Origin: Brevinematia bacterium
GTDB taxonomy: Bacteria; Spirochaetota; Brevinematia; DTOW01
Assembly (NCBI GenBank): GCA_039630355.1
Contig: JBCNVF010000092.1
Span: 1-35,040 of the forward strand
Reading direction: 5' to 3'
DNA: 35,040 nt
The notes beneath the pieces are model-generated. The model was given only the letters and a program-made list of their open reading frames with translations, did not search any database and was not told where the DNA came from. A program made the translations under genes and the position numbers. This document shows, one piece after another, positions 12,358 to 18,432 of the stretch (positions are counted from its first letter, which is position 1; the number at the start of each line of letters is the position of its first letter).

Positions 12358-13083
12358 TTACCTTGTTAACTCAGAAGCTTTTGGCAAGCCTCGGGTTGAC
12401 TCTATTATACTATGGTATATAAACTCTGACAGTCTAAGCAATTGCTTTTCATCTAATCCGAAGAACCTAAATCCACAAAACAGGGCATCACGCCTTACTA
12501 GAAATACCTTTGTTTTCACAACAACATTCCCGAATATCAATTCACAAGGATAAGCCTTGTTATTTATAAACATATTTGCTTCTTCTTCAGTCCGAAAATT
12601 AGCACTCACTCCTCCTGCACTCACATCAAATACCTGTCCCTCAATGACTCTGTTCGGAAGTATCTCAACTCTTAGAAGTCCATAATCAACTTTTACCCTG
12701 TAATGTTTTCTTTTATCGTCATCCTTAATAGGCAAGGTTTGAAGAATCTCATAAATCTTTTCTGATATGTAGTATGGTTGCAGAGCACTGTCAACAATGC
12801 CTGATACTCCTTTCTGCAGGAGTTCTTTCAGCTTAGCAGGGGACTTTTCCGAGGTTACCAATATTATGTATTTTTTAGTCTCACTTATTTTACCAACAAC
12901 ACTGAAGCCCTGCTCTGGAAACATCTTATTTATTCCATCCACATCAATAACGAATACATCAAATTCACCGTTGTTTGCCTGGTCAGAGAATATATGGTTT
13001 ACATAATATCCACGAGATATAAGAAAAACTCCAATTGCTTTTGATAAGGTTGGGCTATTTGAAACAACACCAACTTTTACCAT
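12358..13083 (-). CDS. Receiver-like plus PilZ domain protein (c-di-GMP effector)
   Basis: Residues 1-115 look like a CheY-type receiver fold (KVGVVSNSPTLSKAIGVFLISRGY, then FDVFVIDVDG and YIILVTSEKSPAKLKELLQKG); D47 and D49 lie at the end of beta 3, but the phosphorylation site pattern is not classical. Residues 124-225 are a PilZ domain: RKHYR fits the RxxxR c-di-GMP contact and DVSAGG the second D-x-S-x-x-G motif, so nucleotide binding is expected. PilZ proteins control motility, secretion or the envelope. A GAF/HD-GYP phosphodiesterase lies about 3.6 kb away. No Shine-Dalgarno site stands before the ATG, but a promoter-like TTGAAT-17-TAAATT ends six bases upstream, suggesting a leaderless mRNA. 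Confidence 0.82.
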   Translation of the reverse strand: MVKVGVVSNSPTLSKAIGVFLISRGYYVNHIFSDQANNGEFDVFVIDVDGINKMFPEQGFSVVGKISETKKYIILVTSEKSPAKLKELLQKGVSGIVDSALQPYYISEKIYEILQTLPIKDDDKRKHYRVKVDYGLLRVEILPNRVIEGQVFDVSAGGVSANFRTEEEANMFINNKAYPCELIFGNVVVKTKVFLVRRDALFCGFRFFGLDEKQLLRLSEFIYHSIIESTRGLPKASELTR

Positions 13084-15438: not shown

Positions 15439-15467
15439 TTGAGATACAACCCCTCTTTTCCTATAAT
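15439..15467 (+). promoter_or_regulatory. Promoter of a leaderless zinc-ribbon gene
   Basis: TTGAGA (15439-15444), 17 bases, TATAAT (15462-15467): 11 of 12 consensus bases at ideal spacing. The ATG at 15477 begins nine bases after the -10, so the transcript should start 0-4 bases before it. No Shine-Dalgarno sequence precedes the ATG. Confidence 0.7.
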
Positions 15468-15476
15468 ATTATTACC

Positions 15477-16274
15477 ATGAAAGAGAAAACCTTCGGAAAA
15501 TATAGAATAATATCCTCAAAAGTAAACTTATGGGTATTCATAAATTTAAATACCATCAGATCTTATGAAGACTTCCACAAATTGGATTTTGTTAACAGAG
15601 CCCAAAAATATACAAACACTTCCTTCCAAAAGCTTTGGAATTTCTTTGCGACAACTCCAGTGCTTGAAGCTTGGTGGAATGGAGAAAAACTAATATCAGA
15701 GTTTTTGGTAAATATAGATAAACAGAGAAAAGTATACCCACTGGAACATTTAGATCTTTTCATAAACGAGAGGCTCATACCACTAGAAATCCTACCATCC
15801 ATAATCTCTGACTTCTTAGGCCTTGAATCTTCAAGAGAAATAAAAACCTGTGATGAGAATGCCATAAAGAATATAGAAGTTTTGTGCTTGTGTAAAGTAT
15901 GTGACAGAAAAGTATTTCCAAGCGAGATAGCAGAACAACTTAGTAATACTGAAGGTGTATGCTATTATTGTCTCAACAAACTCTCCCCTGAGATAAGAAG
16001 GGAAATAGAAACTCCATATCTTTTTAAAAAAAGGATAAACGAAACATGGAAAGCACTAACTGAAAAACAGAGAGAACAATTACTATTCAATATCCTAAGA
16101 GAAAGTAGAAAACCCCTAGGAATAGAAGGAATCCAGAAACTCAAAGCACTCGCAAAAAAACTCTCTACAATTGAATCCATATTCAGCGTAGACTTTTCCC
16201 CCGAAGAACTAGAATCAGTTGTAAGAAAGTTAGACAAAGACTACTTTATCATTTGGTGGGAGAAAATAAAATAG
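15477..16274 (+). CDS. Unrecognised protein with a four-cysteine zinc ribbon
   Basis: A 265-residue protein I do not recognise. Residues 1-120 are mixed alpha/beta with several Trp and Phe residues (SFQKLWNFF, EAWWNGEKL). Residues 137-165 contain CLCKVC (C137, C139, C142) and CYYC (C162, C165); C139-C142 with C162-C165 make a probable zinc ribbon. The C-terminal 90 residues are helical and charged (KALTEKQREQLLFNILRES), rather like a DNA- or protein-binding helical bundle. The start is supported by the promoter that ends just upstream, implying leaderless translation. The next gene's ribosome site overlaps this gene's stop, so the two are coupled, and a GAF/HD-GYP gene follows. A role in c-di-GMP signalling is suggested only by this neighbourhood. 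Confidence 0.7.
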   Translation: MKEKTFGKYRIISSKVNLWVFINLNTIRSYEDFHKLDFVNRAQKYTNTSFQKLWNFFATTPVLEAWWNGEKLISEFLVNIDKQRKVYPLEHLDLFINERLIPLEILPSIISDFLGLESSREIKTCDENAIKNIEVLCLCKVCDRKVFPSEIAEQLSNTEGVCYYCLNKLSPEIRREIETPYLFKKRINETWKALTEKQREQLLFNILRESRKPLGIEGIQKLKALAKKLSTIESIFSVDFSPEELESVVRKLDKDYFIIWWEKIK

Positions 16275-16285
16275 GAGAAGCGAAT

Positions 16286-16705
16286 ATGCATAAACAAAAT
16301 GCAAAGAAAATTCCCAACAGCAACTTAAATTCCTCAACCAACAATAACACAGAGTTCACCAAAAGCAAAAAGAATCTTACTCCTACTAACAAAAAGCATC
16401 ACAAATACTTTGACGTAACTTACAGCATAGATTACTCAAAAATAACAGGCACCTGTCCCATATGTTCCAAACACACAATCTATGACCCATCCAATATAGT
16501 GATAGAAGGACATGTGTTTCACTTTGAGTGTGTAGTAAACTACATAAAAGAAAAGTTTGGAACCGAAAGCAACAACAAAATCCTTTATACCGGATCTAAT
16601 ACCTTTGGAATCTTCTGGGAAAGCAGAGATACTAAGAAAACAGAACTACTAAAAAAGGTGAACCTAAAGGATACCTTATATGAGTATATTAAGGCAAACA
16701 CTTAA
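16286..16705 (+). CDS. Unrecognised small treble-clef/RING-like zinc-finger protein
   Basis: A 139-residue protein from the ATG at 16286, which has AGGAGAAG five bases ahead; an in-frame TTG at 16253 lies inside the previous gene and is unlikely. Residues 1-45 are Asn/Ser/Lys-rich and probably disordered. The core has CPIC at 57-60 and H76, H79, C82 in HVFHFEC, giving C-x2-C-x15-H-x2-H-x2-C, which resembles a RING-like or treble-clef finger. The C-terminal third is helical. The last 26 bases overlap the start of the GAF/HD-GYP gene, so the two should be made in step. The function is unknown; a binding partner or adaptor of the phosphodiesterase is a reasonable guess. Confidence 0.68.
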   Translation: MHKQNAKKIPNSNLNSSTNNNTEFTKSKKNLTPTNKKHHKYFDVTYSIDYSKITGTCPICSKHTIYDPSNIVIEGHVFHFECVVNYIKEKFGTESNNKILYTGSNTFGIFWESRDTKKTELLKKVNLKDTLYEYIKANT

Positions 16706-18167
16706 TTTGATAAATACATTACAAAAAGCGCTATTAAATGGTGAATACCCTCACTCTAAAACTCTGATTTCCCTTTGCATCCAAGCACTAGGAAATGAAA
16801 TTCCTTTTGGCATCTACACCGAAACATCAAAAGGCTTCCTGAATGTGTTCAAGTCTGAGAAAAAGACGAAGGTTCTAAAAGATGTGGTAAGCGAAAATGA
16901 AATATCTAAAAAAATCAGAAAGCTAGGAGACGAAACATTCTTTGACATAGCAATATTCTTCAGGAAATTCCAAAGAAAGATTCTGATAAGAGTATCCTTA
17001 CCTCCCTTGCTTCAGCCAGATGAAGAAAACTTAAGCGAAGTAATAAACAGCTTCTATTCCTTTCAAGAACTCTATGATAGAAATTATGTCCTCTTAGAAC
17101 TTATCAAGATCCTCAAAGCAACGGCAGAAGTTGATGATATTGAGGAAGTTATAGAAAATGCAACAAAAGTAACCAAAAAACTTTTGGGAACCCAAGGAGC
17201 TTCAATTTTACTTAAGGACGAAAAAAAAGACGAACTCTTCTTTAAGGTAGTAGAAAGTGAAAAAAGTGACAAAATAAAAGAGGTTAGAATACCTACAAGT
17301 AAAGGAATAGCAGGATATACTGCAAGAACAGGAAAATCACTGATCGTCAACGATGTATCTTCGCATCCTGAATTTTATAGTAAAGTTGACGAAAAAAGCG
17401 GCTTCACAACGAAATCACTAATCTCCGCAGCTATAAAACCCCTGAACAGAACAATAGGAGTAATCGAAGCAGTAAACAAACTAAGGGAAACAAATTTTAC
17501 AGAAGAAGATTTGGAACTTCTAGAGACTATAGCAGACATACTAGGAATAAGCTTAATAAACTCAATACTTCATCAGAAAATTAATAAAATCTCAACCGAC
17601 ATAATAAAAGCTCTAATAACCGCCCTTGAAGCTAGAGACGAATACACAAAAGGACATTCTTACAGAGTTCAAATATTTTCAGTCAAAATCGCTCGCGCTT
17701 TAGGATTACCTTCAAAGAAAATTAAAAAGGTAGAACTATCTTCAATTCTACATGATATTGGCAAAATAGGAATTCCTGACAACATTCTCAGAAAACCAGG
17801 GAAACTCTCAGAGGAAGAATACGAAACAATAAAAAAGCACCCTATCATAGGCTACAATATCCTAAGCTCAGTTGAAGGACTTGAAGATATCCTAGATGGT
17901 ATAAAATACCATCATGAGAAGTTTGACGGAACCGGATACCCCGAAGGTCTAAAGGGTAAGGATATACCACTTATAGCAAGAATAATAGCTGTTGCTGATA
18001 CACTTGACGCTATGACCTCAGACAGACCTTACCGAAAAGCATTACCACTTGAAATAGCACTAGAAGAGATAAAAAAAGTCAAAGGAACCCAGTTAGACCC
18101 CGAAATTGTAGAAACTTTCCTAAACTCATTCTCCAAAACAGAAGAAACACTTCAAGATAATATGTAG
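16680..18167 (+). CDS. GAF domain/HD-GYP cyclic-di-GMP phosphodiesterase
   Basis: A soluble 495-residue signalling enzyme. Residues 1-145 form a helical N-terminal part without a known domain; 150-297 are a GAF sensor (TQGASILLKD, GIAGYTARTGKSLIVNDVSS, ISAAIKPLNRTIGVIEAVNK); 308-485 are HD-GYP. Catalytic and metal residues are intact: HSYRVQ from 326, HDIGKIGIPD from 358, and HHEKFDGTGYPEG from 411, which carries the GYP signature. The expected activity is hydrolysis of c-di-GMP to pGpG or GMP, under control of a ligand bound by GAF. It begins inside the preceding zinc-finger gene (26-base overlap), with AAAGGA about ten bases upstream. The only candidate c-di-GMP receptor in the window is the PilZ protein at 12358-13083. 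Confidence 0.92.
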   Translation: MSILRQTLNLINTLQKALLNGEYPHSKTLISLCIQALGNEIPFGIYTETSKGFLNVFKSEKKTKVLKDVVSENEISKKIRKLGDETFFDIAIFFRKFQRKILIRVSLPPLLQPDEENLSEVINSFYSFQELYDRNYVLLELIKILKATAEVDDIEEVIENATKVTKKLLGTQGASILLKDEKKDELFFKVVESEKSDKIKEVRIPTSKGIAGYTARTGKSLIVNDVSSHPEFYSKVDEKSGFTTKSLISAAIKPLNRTIGVIEAVNKLRETNFTEEDLELLETIADILGISLINSILHQKINKISTDIIKALITALEARDEYTKGHSYRVQIFSVKIARALGLPSKKIKKVELSSILHDIGKIGIPDNILRKPGKLSEEEYETIKKHPIIGYNILSSVEGLEDILDGIKYHHEKFDGTGYPEGLKGKDIPLIARIIAVADTLDAMTSDRPYRKALPLEIALEEIKKVKGTQLDPEIVETFLNSFSKTEETLQDNM

Positions 18168-18198: not shown

Positions 18199-18432
18199 CT
18201 AAGAAAGATTCAACATCTTATCTATAATCGGCTTGTTAAAACCAACAATAACTTTACCATTTATCACAACCACAGGAACACCCATCTGCCCAGATATCCT
18301 CACCATCTCCATCGCTTTTACCTCATCCTTAGACACATCATAGTCCACAAACTTAATGCCCTTGGACCTAAGATAATTCTTAAGCATATTGCAATAGGGA
18401 CAAGTCGGTGTAGAATAAACCTTTACATCCAT
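18199..18432 (-). CDS. Glutaredoxin-like thiol-disulfide protein
   Basis: A 77-residue glutaredoxin fold with active site CPYC (C11, C14), the cis-Pro segment GVPVVVINGK near 52-61 and the C-terminal GF motif. It is of the short NrdH/Uxx-star type that accepts electrons from thioredoxin reductase or glutathione-like thiols and reduces proteins such as ribonucleotide reductase. AGGAGGT lies ahead of the ATG. It has its own strong promoter with overlapping palindromes (18450-18497), separate from the dcd gene upstream, so redox-dependent control seems likely. The 3' end faces the HD-GYP gene, 31 bases away. Confidence 0.88.
   Translation of the reverse strand: MDVKVYSTPTCPYCNMLKNYLRSKGIKFVDYDVSKDEVKAMEMVRISGQMGVPVVVINGKVIVGFNKPIIDKMLNLS

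Follow-up and report, generated by a model that had tools for sequence, protein, structure and literature searches.

Why the gene for a predicted c-di-GMP phosphodiesterase should be translationally coupled to two genes for zinc-finger-like proteins is the question raised by positions 15477-18167 of a 35,040-nucleotide stretch (the window) of contig JBCNVF010000092.1 from a Brevinematia genome. All three genes are on the + strand. The first (15477-16274) encodes by ORF translation P0001, of 265 aa, with a CxxC-x19-CxxC pattern; the second (16286-16705) encodes P0002, a zinc-finger protein of 139 aa counted from its ATG, a TTG-started version of the same ORF opening at 16253; and the third (16680-18167) encodes P0003, of 495 aa, composed of an N-terminal domain, a GAF domain and an HD-GYP domain. 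The coupling described in the first-pass annotation was confirmed. The TAGGAG at 16272-16277 (+) holds both the stop codon of gene 1 and the ribosome site of gene 2, the ATG of which lies 11 bases past that stop, and genes 2 and 3 overlap by exactly 26 bases (16680-16705, +), as read from the sequence. The fixed stoichiometry that had been deduced from these overlaps does not follow from them, since they indicate coupled translation only: coupling of this type speaks for joint expression and leaves stoichiometry unfixed.

The large genes around the trio are mostly on the opposite strand; upstream of it, two tRNA genes point away from gene 1. The promoter scan gave a promoter-like TTGAGA-17-TATAAT (15439-15467, +), the -10 box of which ends 9 bases 5' of the gene 1 ATG, so that the gene 1 transcript may be leaderless; a similar TTGAGATA..TATAAT is found just 5' of the gene 1 start in a related genome (G001). 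Over the whole scan, 8 sites were found against 9.8 in shuffles, with no excess, and the gene 1 promoter is a lead only. Boxes resembling a -10 element were also seen 5-9 bases before the start codons of several other genes of the window genome (L181:4616-5779, L185:6618-7289 and L184:2959-3744), a short spacing hinting at leaderless transcripts. Downstream, a glutaredoxin gene (18199-18432, -) is convergent with the end of the trio and is absent beside the trio in G003 and G004. In addition, half of a protein encoded 2.4 kb from the trio (12358-13083, -) resembles PilZ, with a score that falls slightly short of the Pfam cut-off, and in G002 a similar PilZ-like protein (L054:5557-6282, -) is encoded 6.2 kb from the trio. 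A c-di-GMP receptor near the trio is thus possible, judging from this likeness.

The trio was compared between the window genome (G000, a 1.75 Mb draft) and the four other genomes of its family (G001-G004). Its order and overlaps recur in three of the four; in the fourth, G001, the contig stops inside gene 1, after about 30 codons of P0001, and the rest of the locus falls outside the data. The P0001-P0002-P0003 order is complete in G003 and also present in G004, where the start of P0001 is missing at a contig end, while the G002 contig ends 148 residues into P0003. The P0001-P0002 pair is therefore found in G000, G002, G003 and G004, each time followed by a P0003 orthologue (partial in G002). 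The P0002/P0003 overlaps measure 26 bases in G000, 20 in G003, 11 in G002 and 20 in G004, and the P0001/P0002 junction is an ATGA overlap in G002 and G003. Since they recur in every other readable member of the family, the overlaps are beyond chance. The flanks vary: tRNA and glutaredoxin genes in G000 and, by sequence reading, an ilvD-like gene in G001, GyrA-type and ABC genes in G002, an aminopeptidase-like gene in G003 and an LptF-like gene in G004. In this one Spirochaetota family, the three genes form a real, conserved operon with coupled translation. Conservation of the trio in relatives, a test raised with the first annotation, was borne out inside the family, but outside it the genes are found apart. 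A defence or phage origin of the trio was rejected: PADLOC had no match for P0001 or P0002, and its matches for P0003, of HD and GAF type, were all weak, while P0002 had weak PHROG matches to entries with no assigned function.

P0003 is most likely a c-di-GMP phosphodiesterase, as predicted from its sequence, with hydrolysis taken from knowledge of the family, and its description as an intact enzyme agrees with the motifs. The HD-GYP domain (HD_5 in Pfam; residues 311-476, 17610-18107, +) scored 143.3 bits against a cut-off of 27.2, and the GAF domain (PF01590; residues 153-292, 17136-17555, +; E 6e-16) was also well above its cut-off. LHDIGK is found at residue 357, KKHP at 385, YHHEKFDGTGYP at 410 and VADTLDAM at 438; the HD pair, the HHExxDGxGYP motif and the further metal-ligand histidines and aspartate are all present, and the motifs are kept, with conservative changes, in both full-length orthologues. 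Among proteins of solved structure, P0003 is closest to PmGH (4mcw), which aligned with residues 147-485 at E 4e-69. At the position of PmGH E185, a third-metal ligand, P0003 has a tyrosine (D-E-Y-T-K-G-H at 320-326), and the E/D-T-G signature of the trinuclear subgroup is not found. The available part of the PmGH study (PMC4159591) distinguishes E/D-T-G from Y/F HD-GYP subgroups and expects an effect on metal-centre formation in the latter; by this tyrosine, P0003 is predicted to belong to the Y/F subgroup. The N-terminal domain (about residues 1-140; 16680-17099, +) was matched, among the loci searched, only by orthologues from the same family; compared with GAF by hhalign as a candidate second GAF domain, on the basis of four sequences, it gave a probability of 0.2%.

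The zinc-type patterns noted in P0001 and P0002 also stood, one in each protein, with ligands conserved in 4/4 and at least 79/80 sequences, respectively. In P0001 the pattern is C139-x2-C142-x19-C162-x2-C165 (15891-15971, +), with all four cysteines invariant in the four family sequences; two further cysteines, 125 and 137, are outside the invariant columns. P0001 was matched in 5 of 60 genomes, these being the five family genomes. A search of 296 genomes of the phylum gave six matches, the same five plus G237, where the match (E 9e-4) has an internal stop and lies in a 942-residue frame and was regarded as spurious, and a scan of GTDB contigs gave one locus. P0001 has thus been seen only in the family of the window genome, the same narrow range as the P0003 N-terminal domain. 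It had no Pfam match above cut-off and no NCBIfam, PADLOC or PHROG match, and its family alignment (A1) found nothing below E 0.1 among the sequences of solved structures. Its structure model is poor (mean pLDDT 53), and the Foldseek list obtained from it was uninformative. The two zinc-type sites of P0001 and P0002 did align with each other by hhalign, at a probability of 2.7%. P0001 was also considered as a RecO variant and rejected, as RecO is separately encoded on contig C49 of the window genome and no RecO model matches P0001.

P0002 has a much wider distribution. A profile of its family (alignment A3, 18 members) found it in 190/296 Spirochaetota genomes and 77/138 genera, with one copy per genome in nearly all genomes listed. 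Of the two small proteins first described as being of unknown family, P0001 is specific to this family of genomes, but P0002 is not restricted to the trio and occurs without P0001 in 186 of the 296 genomes (the 190 minus G000, G002, G003 and G004). Its single zinc-type site is C57-x2-C60-x18-H79-x2-C82 (CxxC-x18-HxxC; residues 57-82, 16454-16531, +), and the protein has only three cysteines. Among 80 loci of the family, the four ligand columns are C in 80/80, C in 79/80, H in 76 or C in 3 (79/80 together) and C in 79/80, and Y101, G103 and F107 of a YxGxxxF stretch are invariant; P0002 carries both the family's CxxC..[HC]xxC pattern and these invariant Y, G and F residues. The AlphaFold model has a confident core at about residues 50-139, with pLDDT of about 87-90 at the zinc-type site, preceded by a low-confidence tail (mean pLDDT 70.2 overall). 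Foldseek gave no match at E <= 0.001 for P0002, and the best VIA structural match had Z 4.0 over 53 residues with an rmsd of 3.0. No Pfam or NCBIfam model was above cut-off in the family members scanned, and A3 found nothing below E 0.1 among the sequences of solved structures. Weak Pfam matches to RING and DUF2175 around CxxC..HxxC were all below cut-off (17.7 bits against 25.1 for DUF2175). A RING finger has eight ligands for two zinc ions, C3HC4 or similar, whereas P0002 has three cysteines, ligands for one zinc and no RING profile above cut-off, and it was not assigned to either family. BB0700 and TP0913, putative locus names suggested by gene order, returned nothing in the literature searched. 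P0002 is, by its sequence, a member of an unnamed, single-copy, phylum-wide Spirochaetota zinc-finger family, not a partner private to the trio.

The zinc site of P0002 is most likely structural, as its three cysteines are all predicted ligands and near-invariant. This bears on the earlier suggestion that the fingers of P0001 and P0002 might respond to redox state or metal and adjust the activity of the phosphodiesterase. In DgcZ/CZB proteins, the synthesis of c-di-GMP is under zinc control, a precedent that, together with the conserved cysteine-rich zinc-type sites, gives the idea some ground. However, near-invariant cysteines that are all ligands behave as in structural sites, cysteines 125 and 137 of P0001 are not invariant, and the glutaredoxin gene is convergent and, in G003 and G004, does not adjoin the trio. 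Sensing is therefore considered very unlikely, and tuning of the enzyme by the fingers also meets the P0002-bearing genomes in which there is no HD-GYP to tune (4/25).

The neighbours of P0002 relatives were surveyed on the same strand within 2.5 kb in the 80 loci. Both YraN and HD-GYP were near the P0002-family gene in 32 loci and YraN without HD-GYP in 15 (YraN total 47/80), while GAF-HD-GYP was near it in three (the window, L053 and L055). The other 30 had neither, including one (L054) only owing to an early contig end. Further neighbours are RecO-, RplS/CoaD-, MiaB- and ArgJ-like; in eight listed loci of the same class (families f2-f5), P0002 is, by sequence reading, directly 5' of a RecO-like gene, not of HD-GYP. 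In genus g17 of family f14, three genomes have, just 5' of the P0002-family gene, a gene for a low-complexity protein that is very rich in aspartate (L058:7185-7607, L059:6404-6724 and L069:7256-7636).

In a tree, a single 36-tip clade (support 0.959; UFBoot 100) contained all 32 HD-GYPs near P0002. Also in this clade are an HD-GYP encoded on contig C65 of the window genome (L180:4348-5502), which has the same N-terminal domain, and three from the same class (L050-L052). P0003 and its orthologues are outside this core clade. Since the window genome keeps its core copy on C65, P0002 here adjoins a different, non-orthologous HD-GYP. YraN is encoded on C27 and RecO, as mentioned, on C49, so the core HD-GYP is apart from both YraN and P0002 in this genome.

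The P0002 family is thus near HD-GYP genes in two unrelated arrangements, the core one and that with P0003, and these two separate associations suggest a functional tie. The reading slightly preferred, though put at somewhat under even, is a coupled operon in which P0003 is the c-di-GMP phosphodiesterase and P0001 and P0002 are adaptors with structural zinc. From family knowledge, P0003 would hydrolyse c-di-GMP and dimerise through its GAF domain and linker helix, like PmGH, and its metal centre would be binuclear rather than trinuclear, given the tyrosine at the third-metal ligand. Less surely, P0002, which belongs to the core proteins of the phylum and has a single, structural zinc site, may have been recruited into an operon with P0001; both could be made beside nascent P0003, bind its family-specific N-terminal domain, and place or gate the enzyme.

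Almost as probable is that the genes share transcription only. P0002 would then serve a core function of spirochaetes that has nothing to do with c-di-GMP and perhaps concerns nucleic acids or ribosomes, and its place after P0001 and before P0003 would be due to chance or to needs of expression. The presence of P0002 in 190/296 genomes, mostly as a single copy, fits this, as do the RecO-, RplS/CoaD-, YraN-, MiaB- and ArgJ-like neighbours elsewhere and an N-terminal tail that is net basic in 17/18 A3 members. Of 25 P0002-bearing genomes examined, four, each 97-99% complete and belonging to family f49, had no HD_5 protein, indicating that the core job needs no HD-GYP. Moreover, YraN is close in all 32 loci with a core HD-GYP, so that the core link may be merely an old operon. 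The chance of landing beside an HD-GYP gene was estimated at about 1% per move (7 HD_5 genes in about 1,700 genes), or several percent over the contexts seen, and P0002 could have come beside one by luck. On the other hand, the trio and its coupled junctions persist while the flanks change, and two different HD-GYP types adjoin the P0002 family. YraN closeness, HD_5-free carriers and the chance of adjacency are why the adaptor and shared-transcription readings were placed nearly level.

Two further readings were weighed. GAF domains commonly bind small ligands, so P0003 might be governed by its own GAF ligand alone, with P0001 and P0002 as downstream effectors of lowered c-di-GMP; the near-threshold PilZ match 2.4 kb away would agree with this, but neither P0001 nor P0002 matches known c-di-GMP receptor families, and the reading is held to be improbable. 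A doubtful but wider proposal is that spirochaete HD-GYPs have a general partner in the P0002 family, which would be tied to the core HD-GYP in many lineages and has become tied to another one here; if true, the trio would show what this unnamed zinc protein, present in most of the phylum, does.

In the literature searched, mostly open-access, nothing describing the trio was found. P0003 is an ordinary HD-GYP protein, but its N-terminal domain is new to the libraries searched, as are P0001 and the trio as a coupled unit. Returning to the adaptor reading, tying P0002 to c-di-GMP breakdown, or to some other core process, would explain what a gene conserved through much of the phylum does, and the trio offers a small coupled operon for probing that role.

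Among known systems, the DgcZ/CZB zinc-regulated diguanylate cyclases also link zinc binding with c-di-GMP turnover, but there the zinc domain is inside the cyclase, whereas here the zinc-type proteins are separate, the enzyme is a phosphodiesterase and sensing is unsupported. The core spirochaete HD-GYP/YraN/P0002 loci (for example, L128 and L066) resemble the trio in having a P0002-family gene and an HD-GYP gene side by side in the same orientation; they differ in that their HD-GYP belongs to another clade, has another N-terminal domain and is upstream, and there is no P0001. The closest enzyme is PmGH of Persephonella marina (PDB 4mcw; PMC4159591), which has the same succession of GAF and HD-GYP domains and the same HD, HH and GYP motifs, while P0003 has a tyrosine in place of E185, an extra N-terminal domain and two coupled partner genes.
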